A DNA stretch of 38,835 bases from Actinomycetota bacterium (lineage in GTDB: Bacteria; Actinomycetota; Actinomycetes; S36-B12), in NCBI GenBank assembly GCA_016870515.1, contig VGBL01000020.1, positions 1-38,835 of the forward strand, read 5' to 3'. Under the pieces are notes generated by a model, which worked only from the letters and a program-made list of their open reading frames with translations, had not been told where the DNA came from and did no database searches. Shown here in pieces: positions 1 to 32,739 of this stretch; position 1 is the first letter of the stretch; each line of letters begins with the position of its first letter. The position numbers and the translations under genes are program-made.

Positions 1-190
1 CTCGCGACAGCGACAGGCTGAGGTCGTCTTGAATCGTGGGAAGCGCAGGCCCGATGACGGTGCTGAACATCTGCGCGATGAGCGCTCCAAATCCCATCGC
101 CGCGAGGATCGCCCACGCCGTGGCCGAGACCTGGGGCGCAGGATCATTCGCTGCATCGCTGTGCGACGAGGAATTCACGGGTTCCGTCAT
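1..190 (-). CDS. MFS transporter, N-terminal fragment (cut by window edge)
   Basis: Only the first 63 codons are in the window; the gene runs off the left edge. The start is an ATG at 188-190 on the minus strand. A short polar N-terminus rich in Ser, Asn and Asp is followed by a hydrophobic first membrane segment (AWAILAAMGFGALIAQMFS) and then VIGPALPTIQDDLSLS. That last stretch matches the end of TM1 and the first loop of DHA2-type (EmrB/QacA-like) drug:proton antiporters, where the usual motif is similar to VALPTIQ. The substrate cannot be inferred. It diverges from the sulfatase gene across about 77 bp, which should hold both promoters. It could be another MFS subfamily, since only one helix is visible. 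Confidence 0.7.
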   Translation of the reverse strand, partial: MTEPVNSSSHSDAANDPAPQVSATAWAILAAMGFGALIAQMFSTVIGPALPTIQDDLSLSLSR

Positions 191-267
191 GCCAGCCGTC
201 CCCACGCACGGGACTTTCCGCGCAACGTAGCACCGCATGGCATGGATGCGTCTGCGAGACTTCTACA

Positions 268-1818
268 ATGCCACGCGGACGCAGCGGGAAAGTCTCTCGC
301 CTGTGGCCTGCGTCCGCCGCCGGCACCTTCGTGGTCGCGGCCCTACTCGCCTGCCCGCTCCTGACCTGGGCAGTCGCCGCTGCTCCCGAGCAAGCCGGGG
401 CGGTCGCCGCTGTCGCGGATGACACTGCGCTGCCAGGCCTAGGCGCGACAATTGGCCCGACCGGGCCGGCCGACCTGCCCAACATCGTGATCGTCTACAC
501 CGACGACCAGCGGATCGACTCGACCGCCGGCATGATGCGCCTTCGACAAGACATCGGGCGTCTTGGTGTCACCTTCTCCAATGCGCATGCCCCGACACCG
601 CTGTGCTGCCCTTCACGGGTGAGCCTGCTCAGCGGTCAGCCGTCGCAGGTCACCGGGGTGTGGAGCAATCAGGCTCCCCGCGGCGGTTTCGCCAAGTTCT
701 ACGCGACGGGCGGTGAGGCGCGCACGCTGGCAACGCAACTCGACGCAGTCGGCTACCGCACGGCGCTCATCGGCAAATACCTCAACGGTTACGGAGAGTC
801 CGCGACGCGAATCGCCACCACCGGTGATGACACCTACATCCCGCCTGGCTGGGATGCATGGCACGCATTCGCCTACCCAGTTGCGTACTCGCGGGATGGA
901 GATGCCACCGACTATCGCGACTTCTGGCTCATGCATCGCGCGGAGTCGGAGCCGGTAAACTTCCGCTACCACGGCTTCCGGTCATCCGACTACTCCACGA
1001 CAGTGCTCTCGCGGATCGCCGTCAACACGATCGAGACGACCCCCGAGACGACTCCGCTCTTCATGCTCGTGACCCCGTGGGCACCCCACGCGCCCTACCG
1101 GACGACCTCTCGATACATGACGGCTCCGGTGCCAGGTCCGCGCTACCTGCCTGTCGGGTTCGGGCGTACGACGGGCAAGCCGCCGTGGGTCACCGAGCTG
1201 CCGCGCGTCAGTGCCGAGAAGTCGCGCATGCTCCGCGCCCGGCAGATACGCGCCCTCTACCCGGTCGACGATGCCGTTGGCGCGATCGTCGACGCCCTGA
1301 CGCGCGCGGGGCGTATGGACAACACCCTCTTCGTCTATGCGTCCGATAACGGCTACACATGGGGTGAGTTCAACATCCTCGGTCAGAAGCGCTACCCATA
1401 CACGACACCCGTGCCGCTCATGATGCGCTGGGATGGCCACCTCAGTGCCGGATCGATGGACTCGCGAATCGTGAGCAACGTCGACATCACGGCAACAGCC
1501 CTCGCGGCCGCGGGCGTCGCAGCCTCAACGCCACCTGGCGGAATCGACCTCGTGACACCCGCATCTCGGGAGTCACTCCTGATCGCTTCCGCCGGCAAGA
1601 CACGCGAGGGCGCCCTGCGCGCCTACTGCGGCATCCGCACGAGCGACTGGCTCTACGTCCGGTATGCGGGTGGCTTCGAGGAGCTCTACAACGTTGCCGT
1701 GGACCCCTACTTCCTGACGAACCTCGCGTCGCGCACGGTCCACGAGGGGACCATGGCAGAGCTTCGGTCGAAGACGATGGAGCAGTGCTCGCCCACACCG
1801 CCAGGATTCACCTGGTGA
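268..1818 (+). CDS. Exported or membrane-anchored sulfatase (arylsulfatase family)
   Basis: This 516-residue protein hydrolyses sulfate esters by family; the substrate is unknown. Residues 18-39 form a hydrophobic export signal or anchor. The catalytic domain begins at about residue 70 with IVIVYTDDQR, whose Asp79-Asp80 are expected metal ligands. The sulfatase signature CCPSR lies at 113-117, and Cys113 is the residue normally converted to formylglycine. Further family residues are Lys170 (GKYLNGYG), His274 (WAPHAPY), Asp360-Asn361 (YASDNG) and Lys374. All expected active-site positions appear intact. No formylglycine-generating enzyme gene is in the window, so maturation would depend on a gene elsewhere. 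The ATG at 268 lacks a strong ribosome binding site, so the exact start is uncertain. Confidence 0.9.
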   Translation: MPRGRSGKVSRLWPASAAGTFVVAALLACPLLTWAVAAAPEQAGAVAAVADDTALPGLGATIGPTGPADLPNIVIVYTDDQRIDSTAGMMRLRQDIGRLGVTFSNAHAPTPLCCPSRVSLLSGQPSQVTGVWSNQAPRGGFAKFYATGGEARTLATQLDAVGYRTALIGKYLNGYGESATRIATTGDDTYIPPGWDAWHAFAYPVAYSRDGDATDYRDFWLMHRAESEPVNFRYHGFRSSDYSTTVLSRIAVNTIETTPETTPLFMLVTPWAPHAPYRTTSRYMTAPVPGPRYLPVGFGRTTGKPPWVTELPRVSAEKSRMLRARQIRALYPVDDAVGAIVDALTRAGRMDNTLFVYASDNGYTWGEFNILGQKRYPYTTPVPLMMRWDGHLSAGSMDSRIVSNVDITATALAAAGVAASTPPGGIDLVTPASRESLLIASAGKTREGALRAYCGIRTSDWLYVRYAGGFEELYNVAVDPYFLTNLASRTVHEGTMAELRSKTMEQCSPTPPGFTW

Positions 1819-28021: not shown

Positions 28022-29164
28022 CTATGGGGCCGACACGGGCACGGCGCGGAAGACGCGCGTATCGCTGGACATCGCCTGAATCGTGACCGTCCATATGCTG
28101 CTGGCGCTTCCCGCGGGAATGGTCCAAACACTCACGGCGCGATCGGCCTTGGCGTTGAAGCCGCGCTTGGGCACATCCGAGAAATCGTCGTACAGGTAGA
28201 CGCGGTAGGCCTTGGATGTATCCGGCAGGTGCACCTTGGCGGTGAGCGTGATGGGGGTTGCGGCCGGGGTCCGCTTCATCACCTGGTTCGGACCCCTGCC
28301 GTTTTGCTTTCCTTCTCCGTTCGCATTGGACGTCAGGCGCACGGGGATGGTCACGCCTCCCGGATCGAGGACTCCACTCACTGCCGTCCCGTAGTTCTTG
28401 GGACGATCACGCAGGGCGTAGACCGGTCCTCCGATGGCATTCGCCTCAGCGCGCGTGCGTGGGAAGGTAGCGAACTCGTAGGTGTAGAGGTAGGGAATGT
28501 TGGGCCCGATGTTGTGCAGGCCGTTGTCGCTGATGGTGATGGAGTCCGTCGGGTGGTAGCCCGAATCCTTCATGGGCGATCCGGAGCCGATGCCGAAGAC
28601 CGGGACGATGTGGTCGTAGGACAGATCGCCCTTGTACTCGGGCCATTCATTCAGGATCTTCGTGTTGTTGAGCACGCCGATGATGACCACGTCGCCAGCG
28701 AGGAAGCGCTTCTTGACCCAGCCGAGGTACTGCGGCACGGAGACCTGATCGGCACCCGAGAACGCGCGCGCATCCAGCTTCATTGCCTTCGCGGCACGCA
28801 GGTCGTTGACCTTCAGCAGCAATTGGGCCCCCGCCTTCCACTGGTCCATTCCGGGCGAAGCCAGATGCCGTGCTTTCCACTGGGAGGTGTACTGGCCGAA
28901 CCTCATGCCCGCGCTGATGAGTGCGGTCTCCCCGCAGTAGCCGAAGTTGGCATTCCACTGGAAGCGTGGCGTCATCGGCGTGCCGCGCTCCCAGTACGTC
29001 GTCGACGCCGTCTTTTGTTTCGTGTCCACCTCCCAGTACGTCGTCGGCGGCTTGGCGTGGGCGGACGTCGCCAGGACCAACGGCGAGGTGCACATCGCCG
29101 CTGCCACCGCGAGTCCTATCGAGGCTCTGCGGGAACGAAGAAGAGACATTGACGGAGGAGACAT
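28022..29164 (-). CDS. Exported papain/C39-like cysteine protease
   Basis: This 380-residue protein has a signal peptide (residues 8-37, ending SAHA). The mature start contains two TTYWE units. The catalytic pattern of papain-like C39 peptidases is visible: Gln69 in RFQWNANFGYCGETA, Cys77, His185 in SYDHIVPVFGIGSG and Asp213-Asn214 in ISDNG. The C-terminal half (about 260-380) is strand-rich with LTAKVHLPDTSKAYRVYLYD, resembling a beta-sandwich for binding or anchoring. It probably cleaves an extracellular peptide, or acts as a transpeptidase-like enzyme. ATG 29164 follows AAGGGG. It lies 53 bp downstream of the amine oxidase gene on the same strand. Proteolysis is inferred from residues only. 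Confidence 0.75.
   Translation of the reverse strand: MSPPSMSLLRSRRASIGLAVAAAMCTSPLVLATSAHAKPPTTYWEVDTKQKTASTTYWERGTPMTPRFQWNANFGYCGETALISAGMRFGQYTSQWKARHLASPGMDQWKAGAQLLLKVNDLRAAKAMKLDARAFSGADQVSVPQYLGWVKKRFLAGDVVIIGVLNNTKILNEWPEYKGDLSYDHIVPVFGIGSGSPMKDSGYHPTDSITISDNGLHNIGPNIPYLYTYEFATFPRTRAEANAIGGPVYALRDRPKNYGTAVSGVLDPGGVTIPVRLTSNANGEGKQNGRGPNQVMKRTPAATPITLTAKVHLPDTSKAYRVYLYDDFSDVPKRGFNAKADRAVSVWTIPAGSASSIWTVTIQAMSSDTRVFRAVPVSAP
28988..29046. repeat. 17-bp direct repeat inside the cysteine protease gene
   Basis: The 17 bases at 28988-29004 recur exactly at 29030-29046, 42 bases (14 codons) apart, so the reading frame is kept. On the coding strand they encode the repeated TTYWE peptide just after the signal peptide. 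It looks like a small internal duplication of the mature N-terminus. Confidence 0.8.
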
Positions 29165-29217: not shown

Positions 29218-30588
29218 CTAGGGAGAGAACGCCGCGATCAGGGCGGCCGACGCCTCCCCCACGCAGCCCTCGATCGTCGCCGGGCGCGTCCTCCCGGCTC
29301 GCCCTGCGGCGAAGCCCACCAGCGCCGGGAATCCGATGACGTCGGTGAGTGAATAGAACTCCGTCCACCGCAGGGAGGCGAGCGACCCCGCGGGTGCGCC
29401 GGGCGCACCGCCGCCCACGACGCCGTACACCTGACGGTCCCCCCACCAGGGCTCGTCGTAGCGCAGCACGACCTTCTCGAACACCCCCGTGACGAGCCCG
29501 CGGAGCGTGGCCGAGACACGTTCACCCATGTCGGGCATGCGTGGTAGGCCCGCGCGCAGAAGCGCCAACGGCACGGCCACGACGGCCACGTCGGCACTCA
29601 CCCGGCCACCTGATCGCAGAGCGACGTCCACGCGCGAGGCGCGCGACTTCACGGACTCGGCTGCCTGGCGGCGACGCACCTCGATCCCGGAGAGGAGGTT
29701 GTCGACGATGGTCGCGTAGCCATCGGCGACCATCGCGTCGCCGCCGCGATACGCGGCGCCCTCCTGAGTGGCGCGCACACCCAGGCGCGTGGGGTCGAGG
29801 GCGTAGGACTGGGTGATCTCGACCTGAGCGGCCCAGGAGTCGATGCGATCCGTGGTCCAGCCCCGGCGCGCGAGCCACTCAGCCACGCTCTGCGTGCGCG
29901 GTGGTCGCGCCTGCTCGAGTTGGCCGAGGAGGGAGTCGAGCCGGCTCCAGCGGATCTCCGCTTCGCGTGAGGGCGCACCGGTCTCGGTGTCGCGCGTGGA
30001 GTAGCTGTCGAAGTCGGTGGGCACGAGGGTCAGTCCGGCATCGCGGGCCAGCGGCACGATCGGGTTGCCGCGCGTGCCGTGGATCCACGAGGCCCCCAGC
30101 TCGACCGGCGCACCCCAGTCCTCGTTGCTCCAGATGCGCCCGCCCACGCGCTCGCGCGCCTCGAGCACGGTTACCTCGAGGCCGGCGTCGGCCAGTCGCC
30201 GCGCCGCGGCCGCGCCGGCCATGCCGGCACCGATGACCACGGCGGTCCGTGCCTTCACGCGATCAAGCAGGCGTCGCGCCGCGTGCTCACCGGACAGGTG
30301 TGCGCCCGTCGTGGTCGCGGGGTACCGGGTGCTCGCGTACTCCCCCGCGAGCACGATGCGCCCGCCGATCACCGCGTCGGCGAGGGTATGTCGCACCGCG
30401 GGCGAGGTACCCACGGGGAGAGCGGAGTAGGAGCCGCGCGACCACGGATCGGTGTCCCAGCGCGTGACGAGCGAGGCGGTGGGGGAGGGGACGGCAATCC
30501 GGCGAGCGCCACGGGCAGGTTCGGTCGTCAGCAGCGGCGGCGACACTGCAGCCATGACCCCCGCGGCGAGGAATCTGCGCCGATCCAC
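29218..30588 (-). CDS. Tat-exported FAD amine oxidase, apparently circularly permuted
   Basis: This 456-residue protein begins with a twin-arginine signal (MDRRRFLAAGVMAAVSPPLL). The FAD dinucleotide-binding fold is at 116-153: VVIGAGMAG, VTVLEARERVGGRIW, then LGASWIHG. Residues 41-109, however, read VTRWDTDPWSRGSYSALPVG, then IVLAGEYASTRYPATTTGAH and LSGEHAARRLL. In ordinary amine oxidases that segment is the very C-terminus. Here the chain ends at EASAALIAAFSP, where VTRW would normally follow. The order of parts is therefore rotated rather than the protein truncated. It should oxidise a primary or polyamine outside the cell. GTG 30588 is the start. A longer C-terminus is excluded by the TAG at 29218-29220. 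Confidence 0.85.
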   Translation of the reverse strand: MDRRRFLAAGVMAAVSPPLLTTEPARGARRIAVPSPTASLVTRWDTDPWSRGSYSALPVGTSPAVRHTLADAVIGGRIVLAGEYASTRYPATTTGAHLSGEHAARRLLDRVKARTAVVIGAGMAGAAAARRLADAGLEVTVLEARERVGGRIWSNEDWGAPVELGASWIHGTRGNPIVPLARDAGLTLVPTDFDSYSTRDTETGAPSREAEIRWSRLDSLLGQLEQARPPRTQSVAEWLARRGWTTDRIDSWAAQVEITQSYALDPTRLGVRATQEGAAYRGGDAMVADGYATIVDNLLSGIEVRRRQAAESVKSRASRVDVALRSGGRVSADVAVVAVPLALLRAGLPRMPDMGERVSATLRGLVTGVFEKVVLRYDEPWWGDRQVYGVVGGGAPGAPAGSLASLRWTEFYSLTDVIGFPALVGFAAGRAGRTRPATIEGCVGEASAALIAAFSP

Positions 30589-30624: not shown

Positions 30625-32640
30625 TCACGGCGCAGGGAAGGTCAGCGTGGCTGGGCCGAGCGCGCCGGTCACCCGCAGCGTGGCCAGCGCGCCGTCGGTG
30701 TCGGCGTTCCATGACCCGGTGACGGTGCGCACGCTGCTGCTCGCTGGCACCCGCAGATCAACCGACACGGACGCGGTCCTGCGATTCCATGTCACGGTCC
30801 CACTCACGGGCAGGTCTCGCACGAGCTTGACGCCGTCGAGGGTGAAGCGCACACGCTTGGTGCCGGAGTAGCGCCACTCGCCACCGCGCAGGCCGAAGCC
30901 GGTGTCGGAGTAGCCCTGCCACCATCGGTCGATGAGGTCCGCTGCGGTGTTGGCGGCGGCGACGGTCACGCGCGAGCGCTCATCATCGGCAACCCCGGCA
31001 GGCAGTTGCACGCCGGCGAGCTCGCGCGGGTAGGTGCCGACCGCGCGGATGGGCGGCGCCGTGGACGCGCACTCCTCGAGCGCGAGCGGGATCTCAATAT
31101 CTCCCGTGCGGATGACGTGCCGCACGAGCTGCGCGCCGCACGAGTCGGGACCGGCGCCCCCGACGACGTGCAGGCCGTTGGCGACGACGATGTGCCGCGA
31201 GCGGGTGAAGCGCTCAGCCACCATGTCGCCCTCGGCCGCGGTCGTGATCGTGTCGAGCTCACCCGAGAGCACGAGCGTGGGAACGGCCGGGTAGGCGCCA
31301 TCGAGCGGCCGAGGTGGGCCGAAGGACGCCCCAGCGGGAGGCCTCGGCCATTCCAGGCACATACCAAAGGAGATCCAGCCCGAGCGCTTGTACTCGCGAA
31401 TCGAGAACGGCGCATAGATGCCAGGCCGTGACTTCTCCTTGCGCGCGAGCGCCTCGCGGTATTGCTGCTGGCGCGCGCCCGGTGATCGACGCAGGTCGAA
31501 CAGCTGCGGGTAGTCGTGGCATGACACCGCAGCCTCAGCCCCGTAGCTGTATTGCCGCGGGTTGTTGGAGGTATCGCCGGTCCACCAGTACTCCGCGAAG
31601 AGTCGGCCCAGTGGTCGTGCATCGCCGTCGAGCGCAGCGCGCACGGCGCCGGTGAACTCGCGGTAGGTCGGTGAGAGATAGGTGGCGTTGTAGGCGACGC
31701 CGGCGACCGCCTCGGGGTCGAGCACGACGCGATGGAATCGGCCGTCGCCACCTGGTGCCCGCACGCTCATCGGCCTCTCGCGCAATCGGTCGAGCAGGGT
31801 CTCCAGCAGCGGCATGGGCAGTCCGGGCTCGCTGGCGCACAGCTCGCTTCGCGCGCAGACGGCGGTGAAGGCGCGGCGCAGGGCCGGGCCCTGGGTCGGG
31901 TACCACGCGGACTCGCCGTAGGTCGGGTAGGCGCCGTCGAGGATTAGAGTGCGCAGTCGGTCGCCGTGGCGGCCGGCGAAGGCCTGCGCGAAGAACGTGC
32001 CGTAGGAGTCGCCGTACATGTCGACCTGGTCGATCTCCAGCGCGTCGAGCACCGCGGCGAGGTCGTCGGCGGATGCCTCACTCCCGTAGGAGTAGGAGCG
32101 GTCGCCGAGCGAGCGGCCGCAAACGCCCACGGCGCGCACGTAGGACATCGTGCCGTTGTCGAGCGCGGGGCACGCGACGACGGCGGTGCGACCCGTGCCG
32201 CGCTGGTCGACCAGGAGCATGTCGTGATTGGACAGCAGATCGCCGTACATCTCTGCAAACCACTCTCCCGACCCCGTCGTGCTGTAGCCGGGGCCGCCTT
32301 CATGCGGCACGAGCGTGCCGATCGACCGGCCGGATGCCGCGGGAATCCAAGCGAAGCCGACCTTGAAAGTGCCGGCCACGCGGCCGGACTCATCCCAACC
32401 TCGCGTGATGTGCCCGCAGTAGGCATCACGCATCACGGGGCACGGTGTGAGCTCGACACTGCCGACGCGCAGCACCTTCGCCCCGTTCTTCGCTAGATTT
32501 AGGGCACTTTCCGCCCTGAGATTTCCCAGATACGGCGCAGCGCTGGCGCAAGCGACTGCATTCACGAGGCCGACGGCCAGAGCCGCGGCGAGGAGTCGGC
32601 GATTCCAATGCACGCCCCATGGTTGCAGCCCACCTGGCAT
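30625..32640 (-). CDS. Exported S33-type alpha/beta hydrolase (tripeptidyl aminopeptidase-like)
   Basis: This is a protein of about 671 residues with an N-terminal export signal (RRLLAAALAVGLVNAVACAS). The hydrolase core shows the oxyanion region HEGGPGYSTTGS, LVDQRGTGR, the nucleophile elbow GDSYGTFFAQAF (Ser212 with this start), an acid in LSGELDTITT and a His in VANGLHVVGG. This is the tripeptidyl/prolyl aminopeptidase family S33 with a TAP-like C-terminal part. A further strand-rich domain of about 120 residues closes the protein. Paired cysteines fit an exported enzyme. ATG 32640 is chosen; GTG 32613 would also keep the signal peptide. It is on the minus strand upstream of the amine oxidase gene, 36 bp apart, and may be in one transcript with it and the cysteine protease. 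Confidence 0.85.
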   Translation of the reverse strand: MPGGLQPWGVHWNRRLLAAALAVGLVNAVACASAAPYLGNLRAESALNLAKNGAKVLRVGSVELTPCPVMRDAYCGHITRGWDESGRVAGTFKVGFAWIPAASGRSIGTLVPHEGGPGYSTTGSGEWFAEMYGDLLSNHDMLLVDQRGTGRTAVVACPALDNGTMSYVRAVGVCGRSLGDRSYSYGSEASADDLAAVLDALEIDQVDMYGDSYGTFFAQAFAGRHGDRLRTLILDGAYPTYGESAWYPTQGPALRRAFTAVCARSELCASEPGLPMPLLETLLDRLRERPMSVRAPGGDGRFHRVVLDPEAVAGVAYNATYLSPTYREFTGAVRAALDGDARPLGRLFAEYWWTGDTSNNPRQYSYGAEAAVSCHDYPQLFDLRRSPGARQQQYREALARKEKSRPGIYAPFSIREYKRSGWISFGMCLEWPRPPAGASFGPPRPLDGAYPAVPTLVLSGELDTITTAAEGDMVAERFTRSRHIVVANGLHVVGGAGPDSCGAQLVRHVIRTGDIEIPLALEECASTAPPIRAVGTYPRELAGVQLPAGVADDERSRVTVAAANTAADLIDRWWQGYSDTGFGLRGGEWRYSGTKRVRFTLDGVKLVRDLPVSGTVTWNRRTASVSVDLRVPASSSVRTVTGSWNADTDGALATLRVTGALGPATLTFPAP

Positions 32641-32739
32641 CAGTCCAGAGTCGAACGGGCCGGGGGTGGCCCCCGGCGAATCCCTCGGCGCGCCTCCCAA
32701 TATCCTTCACTGGTCTTCGACACCGGTTCGGCGGCGATG

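Follow-up and report, generated by a model that had tools for sequence, protein, structure and literature searches.

A natural and conserved circular permutation of the flavin amine oxidase fold in bacteria

A flavin amine oxidase gene with crossed segment order

The window analysed here is a 38,835-nucleotide stretch of an Actinomycetota genome (contig VGBL01000020.1). On its minus strand, from 30588 to 29218, it carries a GTG-initiated frame of 456 amino acids plus stop that is open throughout, as a sequence-only reading of the region had maintained. The encoded protein comprises a Tat-like signal, a segment (B) that is normally the C-terminal FAD segment of flavin amine oxidases, a short junction and a segment (A) that holds the parts that normally come first (Table 1). 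Segment B reads TRWDTDPWSRGSYS ... AGEY..YPATTTGA..SG..AARRLL, and the translated frame has GAGMAG at the residues given for it in that reading. The flanking genes, all on the minus strand, encode a TAP-like alpha/beta hydrolase (30625-32700) and a 380-residue protein (28022-29164) with a hydrophobic N terminus and no Pfam match, after which comes a zincin-like metallopeptidase (PF06262). The 380-residue protein also adjoins the permuted gene in loci L021, L024 and L025. When 20 loci were compared, parts of the window gene order recurred in L021-L025, the closest relatives only, so the neighbourhood points to no clear function or substrate. Five loci (L034-L037 and L024) have, close to the permuted gene, a distantly related amine oxidase in normal order (Table 1).

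Table 1 Coordinates of the permuted gene and its parts in the window, and of normal-order oxidases near permuted genes at other loci
Feature	Position	Strand	Basis or remark
Circularly permuted flavin amine oxidase, whole gene	29218..30588	-	frame, PF01593, LSD2 alignment
Tat-like signal, residues 1-29, DRRRFLAAG then hydrophobic stretch	30502..30588	-	motif test, pLDDT <50
Segment B, residues 33-108, normally C-terminal FAD segment	30265..30492	-	PF01593 369-443/443, LSD2 699-772
Junction, residues 109-114, end of B to Rossmann strand 1	30247..30264	-	model helix/loop/strand; profile-match gaps
Segment A, residues 115-456, normally N-terminal and central (Rossmann fold, substrate and catalytic parts)	29221..30246	-	PF01593 1-320/443; VIA-align to LSD1 277..737
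GAGMAG dinucleotide-binding motif, residues 120-125	30214..30231	-	GxGxxG glycines in 74/74 permuted proteins
K372, catalytic-type lysine position	29473..29475	-	alignment to LSD2 lysine
Nearby normal-order oxidase	L034:3531-4796, L035:5351-6790, L036:5353-6792, L037:5372-6643	-	convergent, immediately downstream
Nearby normal-order oxidase	L024:5042-6640	+	~1.1 kb downstream, same strand

Flavin amine oxidases, among them MAO, LSD1 and the polyamine oxidases, are some of the most studied flavoenzymes. The window protein matched the profile of this superfamily, PF01593, in two stretches at 169.6 bits (gathering cut-off, 19.8). Scanned alone, residues 30-111 matched profile positions 369-443 of 443 (aligned residues 33-108) and residues 112-456 matched positions 1-320 (E 1.8e-35; residues 123-415 in the whole-protein scan), such that the C-terminal part of the profile precedes its N-terminal part, which bears out the circular permutation that had been proposed. 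Chance similarity of the N-terminal segment is ruled out by the E value of that fragment on its own, 1.5e-15. The earlier reading had put the last-type segment at residues 41-109; it is indeed there, ahead of GAGMAG, but starts earlier, at about residue 30-33. A phmmer comparison with human LSD2 (4gu0) was crossed in the same way, with query residues 112-188, 278-414 and 32-106 aligned to LSD2 335-412, 520-654 and 699-772, respectively, the last of these pieces alone with an i-Evalue of 7.2e-10. The C-terminal FAD segment of PF01593 is therefore present and the customary N-to-C segment order is absent. That order is what is customary in described members of the family and is no criterion of homology, and a crossed order in a PF01593 member makes the window protein a permuted variant, which homology places in the superfamily and whose architecture is new.

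LSD2 (KDM1B) 4gu0 was the best sequence match of the window protein (phmmer E 7.4e-39), followed among the enzymes compared by spermine oxidase (7oxl, 1.6e-30), N1-acetylpolyamine oxidase (5lae, 5.5e-21) and maize polyamine oxidase (1b37, 3.1e-20). Spermine and polyamine oxidases are ordered A then B, whereas the window protein is ordered B then A; relative to LSD1 and LSD2, it is permuted, bacterial and preceded by a Tat-like signal. In LSD1 and LSD2, a SWIRM domain adjoins the oxidase domain; for the window protein, the 15 Pfam families listed (E <= 0.01) did not include SWIRM. Two normal-order bacterial oxidases, L107 and L100, share 37% identity with it over the matched A part and carry a Tat-like signal too, but are built signal-A-B where the window protein is signal-B-A. 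Comparing six proteins with NCBIfam gave no family at its cut-off among the matches listed (for L107, the best 25 of 29).

Conservation of the order among relatives

Scanning a single genome for each species and adding relatives of the window's genome yielded 31 distinct permuted proteins, namely the window protein and 30 relatives at 42-85% identity, with contiguous B-A order throughout. In group A1, which includes the window protein, 31 of 31 match PF01593 at E <= 1e-10. Normal-order orthologues, which the earlier reading had named as a sign of artefact, did not emerge: the closest relatives are all permuted, and the normal-order homologues are more distant genes.

Frames of the collected loci were classified with separate B and A profiles. 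Across 172 loci, with locus duplicates counted, 91 frames were permuted, 33 were normal, 61 held A only and 4 held B only; further searches brought the distinct, filtered sets to 74 permuted and 77 normal-order proteins. A full-length profile built from 26 normal-order relatives gave a crossed match in 71/71 permuted proteins. Rotating these sequences in silico produced a single co-linear match covering >85% of the profile in 70/71, and raised the best-domain score in all 71 (median gain 86.7 bits, minimum 66.6). In every one of the 74 permuted proteins, 5-11 residues separate the B profile match from the A profile match. A second, C-terminal copy of the segment, the other sign that would have spoken against permutation, turned up neither in the classified frames of the 172 loci (score cut-off 8 bits) nor at a threshold of 1e-2 in a 236-locus set. 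A and B occupy two overlapping frames at locus L139 only, the other stand-alone B cases being short B-like frames. Such frames occur at L105:3654-3980, L127:1-327 and L129:1-300, in genomes of family f9, where they score 24-26 bits near normal-order amine oxidases and are possibly the ends of neighbouring paralogues.

Flavin site, export signal and predicted fold

Across the 74 aligned permuted rows, G120, G122, G125, E143, G149, G150 and R151 (the GxGxxG, E and GGR elements) are invariant, and G82-E83 of segment B, which we take to contribute FAD contacts, is kept in 71/71. K372, the counterpart of LSD1 K661, aligns with the catalytic-type lysine of LSD2; a lysine occupies this position in 47/74 permuted and 59/77 normal-order rows. 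The window protein also has W168, H170, N175 and P176, and its GASWIHGTRGNP stretch resembles the active-site stretch WIHG...NP of SMOX and APAO. Because the WIH-stretch histidine is present in 72/77 of the normal-order relatives compared, it is not diagnostic of polyamine oxidases.

Given that the FAD motifs and K372 are kept, we read the window protein as a putative Tat-exported amine (perhaps polyamine) oxidase. It is probably FAD-dependent and of the LSD1/spermine oxidase/polyamine oxidase fold, and it is circularly permuted to signal-B-junction-A. One FAD would be held jointly by GxGxxG and GGR of segment A and GE..PATTTGA of segment B, and an amine would be oxidised outside the cytoplasm with H2O2 as the by-product. 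A protein that retains the flavin site as a pseudoenzyme, or uses it for another chemistry than amine oxidation, is the strongest alternative, although still an unlikely one. In its favour, among the 39 permuted rows that remain once the window's group and L096 are set aside, the lysine is present in 14, His170 in 11 and Trp168 in 18, with the checked FAD-site residues invariant, and some of the wider permuted family may therefore be other than canonical oxidases. For this protein the window's own group speaks against it: of its 31 rows, 29 have the lysine (arginine in the other 2), 29 His170 and 31 Trp168, and the window protein has all three. It thus has the equipment of an amine oxidase. 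A working Tat-exported oxidase is what its sequence most likely encodes, and the permuted rows that lack lysine and histidine possibly form a subfamily with another chemistry. L111 and L112 belong to the 39 outside rows, 25 of which are without the lysine and 28 without the WIH histidine while the FAD-site residues are kept.

The Tat signal that had been proposed passes a test that combines a twin-arginine expression with hydropathy and takes shuffled sequences as the expectation. Such a signal precedes B in 71/74 permuted proteins (shuffled expectation 0.5) and A in 28/77 normal-order proteins (0.3). The three permuted misses are L098, L197 and L198, of which L197 and L198 are permuted genes from the Pseudomonadota-centred sample described below. 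A lipobox-like pattern follows the Tat motif in 42 permuted and 8 normal-order proteins. In a thinned set of 45, Tat-like signals occur in 18/21 permuted versus 13/24 normal-order proteins (Fisher p 0.028, uncorrected for relatedness), a contrast that relatedness may explain.

The native-order chain was modelled by AlphaFold2 from a 31-sequence alignment with a pLDDT of 86.8 and a pTM of 0.86; pLDDT drops under 50 in residues 1-29 only, and segment B and the junction are modelled confidently. The elements of B are strand 38-41, a broken bridge at 56-59, helix 64-71, strand 78-80 and helix 93-110, from which a four-residue loop leads to the Rossmann strand at 115-119. The prediction that permutation would make the two FAD-contacting parts neighbours is thus reproduced in the model. 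A normal-order control, L107, was modelled with similar confidence (pLDDT 86.1, pTM 0.87), its B elements being strands 382-387 and 398-403, helix 407-414, strand 420-422 and helix 435-452.

The top Foldseek match of the permuted model was LSD2 7xe3_A (E 4.0e-21), and the top VIA-align match was LSD1 (KDM1A) 2z5u (Z 27.4; 331 residues; rmsd 2.4; 108..456 against 277..737). The L107 model aligned to the same structure with Z 45.0 over 414 residues (33..453 against 279..829), and among the matches listed, 50 solved entries align co-linearly with this normal-order relative. These ranges denote only the first and last aligned residues. Beyond the signal, the stretch that the sequential aligner left out of the permuted protein is the moved segment, and the C-terminal part of LSD1 that is absent from the match is its counterpart; none of residues 30-107 was placed on a solved C-terminal segment by sequential aligners. 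That B sits in its usual place in space is suggested by the confidence of the model. The junction joins the former N and C termini, close neighbours in this fold, and the new termini fall within the loop that connects the last helix of A to the first strand of B; the chain would close into the usual fold. A segment-swapped dimer, in which B completes the FAD site of the partner chain, is very unlikely: the model of one chain is of high confidence through B and the junction (pTM 0.86), and a junction of 5-11 residues fits the adjacent termini of the usual fold.

Selection, distribution and origin of the permuted order

Estimates of dN/dS in six partly overlapping pairs of relatives were 0.05-0.21 for B and 0.08-0.22 for A; the same pairs gave 0-0.35 for the junction and up to 1.15 for the signal, on few sites. 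Both B and A are under purifying selection. A misjoined or misbinned contig could also yield a crossed order, and the window's genome assembly does consist of 61 contigs, but separate assemblies of many genomes show the same order and the same kind of junction (among them that of G158, listed with one contig), and with purifying selection on either side of that junction an artefact is, for practical purposes, ruled out. Because the permuted order is kept in dozens of bacteria, the rearrangement is real: flavin amine oxidases exist in a natural, conserved, circularly permuted form.

Of 59 genomes searched, including that of the window, 20 have loci classed as permuted (L001-L020), with partial matches in G058 and G033 left unclassed. 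The G033 match (L094) covers part of A with an in-frame stop, and the gene looks decayed. In the actinobacterial family f39, 35/120 genomes match at E <= 1e-40 and all 30 fetched loci are permuted; in an even draw of Actinomycetota, 26/396 match at this threshold and at least 11 of the 396 have a permuted gene. A Pseudomonadota-centred sample (around the L042 genome, Acetobacteraceae) gave matches at E <= 1e-40 in 17/249 genomes and permuted genes in at least 3. Samples centred on the L041 genome (titled Holophagales) and the L046 genome (Anaerolineae) gave 19/199 and 13/151 at the same threshold, with the permuted order seen in 0 of either. These genome counts are lower bounds, because scoring was limited to the top candidates of each genome, of which only a part became loci. 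A plasmid search matched 11 records, and the single locus fetched (Haloarcula) is in normal order. The permuted L201, from the Pseudomonadota-centred sample, lacks roughly 45 profile positions from the central part of A. Four loci (L027, L029, L038 and L039) come from records titled Bifidobacterium breve that are probably mislabelled bins; the L039 protein is identical to the L015 protein, whose genome belongs to the window's family, and the other three group alongside in the tree.

In the best trees, the deep branches are weak and permuted proteins are scattered over several groups, interspersed with normal-order relatives; the permuted rows form one group in 0/200 bootstrap trees. The starred branches force two changes of order in one quick tree (64 rows out of the 151 passing score and length filters) but only one in the careful trees. 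AU tests did not reject a single permuted clade, either for 57 rows, drawn from 97 after the long rows L042 and L140 and near-copies were dropped (lnL difference 16.7, p 0.22), or for 45 rows, a subset of the 64 (42 plus 3 outgroup; lnL difference 18.1, p 0.173).

Duplication and fission-fusion are described as routes to circular permutation in the review literature (PMC3320104), in the main text of which saposin and swaposin and the transhydrogenases appear as natural permutations of the same rearrangement type and the words oxidase, flavin and FAD have 0 occurrences. No description of a permuted amine oxidase was found among the matches listed from the part of the open-licence PMC literature that was covered, and the permuted flavin amine oxidase is apparently an undescribed version of a very well studied fold. 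About half of the thinned normal-order relatives carry a signal, so export may already have been in place in the ancestor. We infer that a Tat-exported normal-order oxidase probably gave rise to the permuted order by duplication and trimming behind a kept signal, a route that would be favoured because the signal stays in front; duplication intermediates with extra copies were absent from the frames of the 172-locus and 236-locus sets. Such a rearrangement would have taken the export signal or lipid anchor off Rossmann strand 1 and attached it at a different loop. More speculatively, and rather doubtfully in our estimation, the fold was permuted more than once at one loop, in Actinomycetota and Pseudomonadota and mostly in Tat-exported or lipid-anchored proteins, the driver being a signal or anchor freed from Rossmann strand 1 and a full FAD cradle made contiguous at the N terminus before folded export.

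Automated annotation probably hides the permutation, because profile matches are reported irrespective of how their pieces are ordered. As a natural and widely conserved permutant, the family indicates that the flavin amine oxidase fold accepts new termini, and it offers ready-made scaffolds. It also makes testable the idea that moving the signal off the first FAD-binding strand aids passage of the cofactor-loaded protein through Tat.
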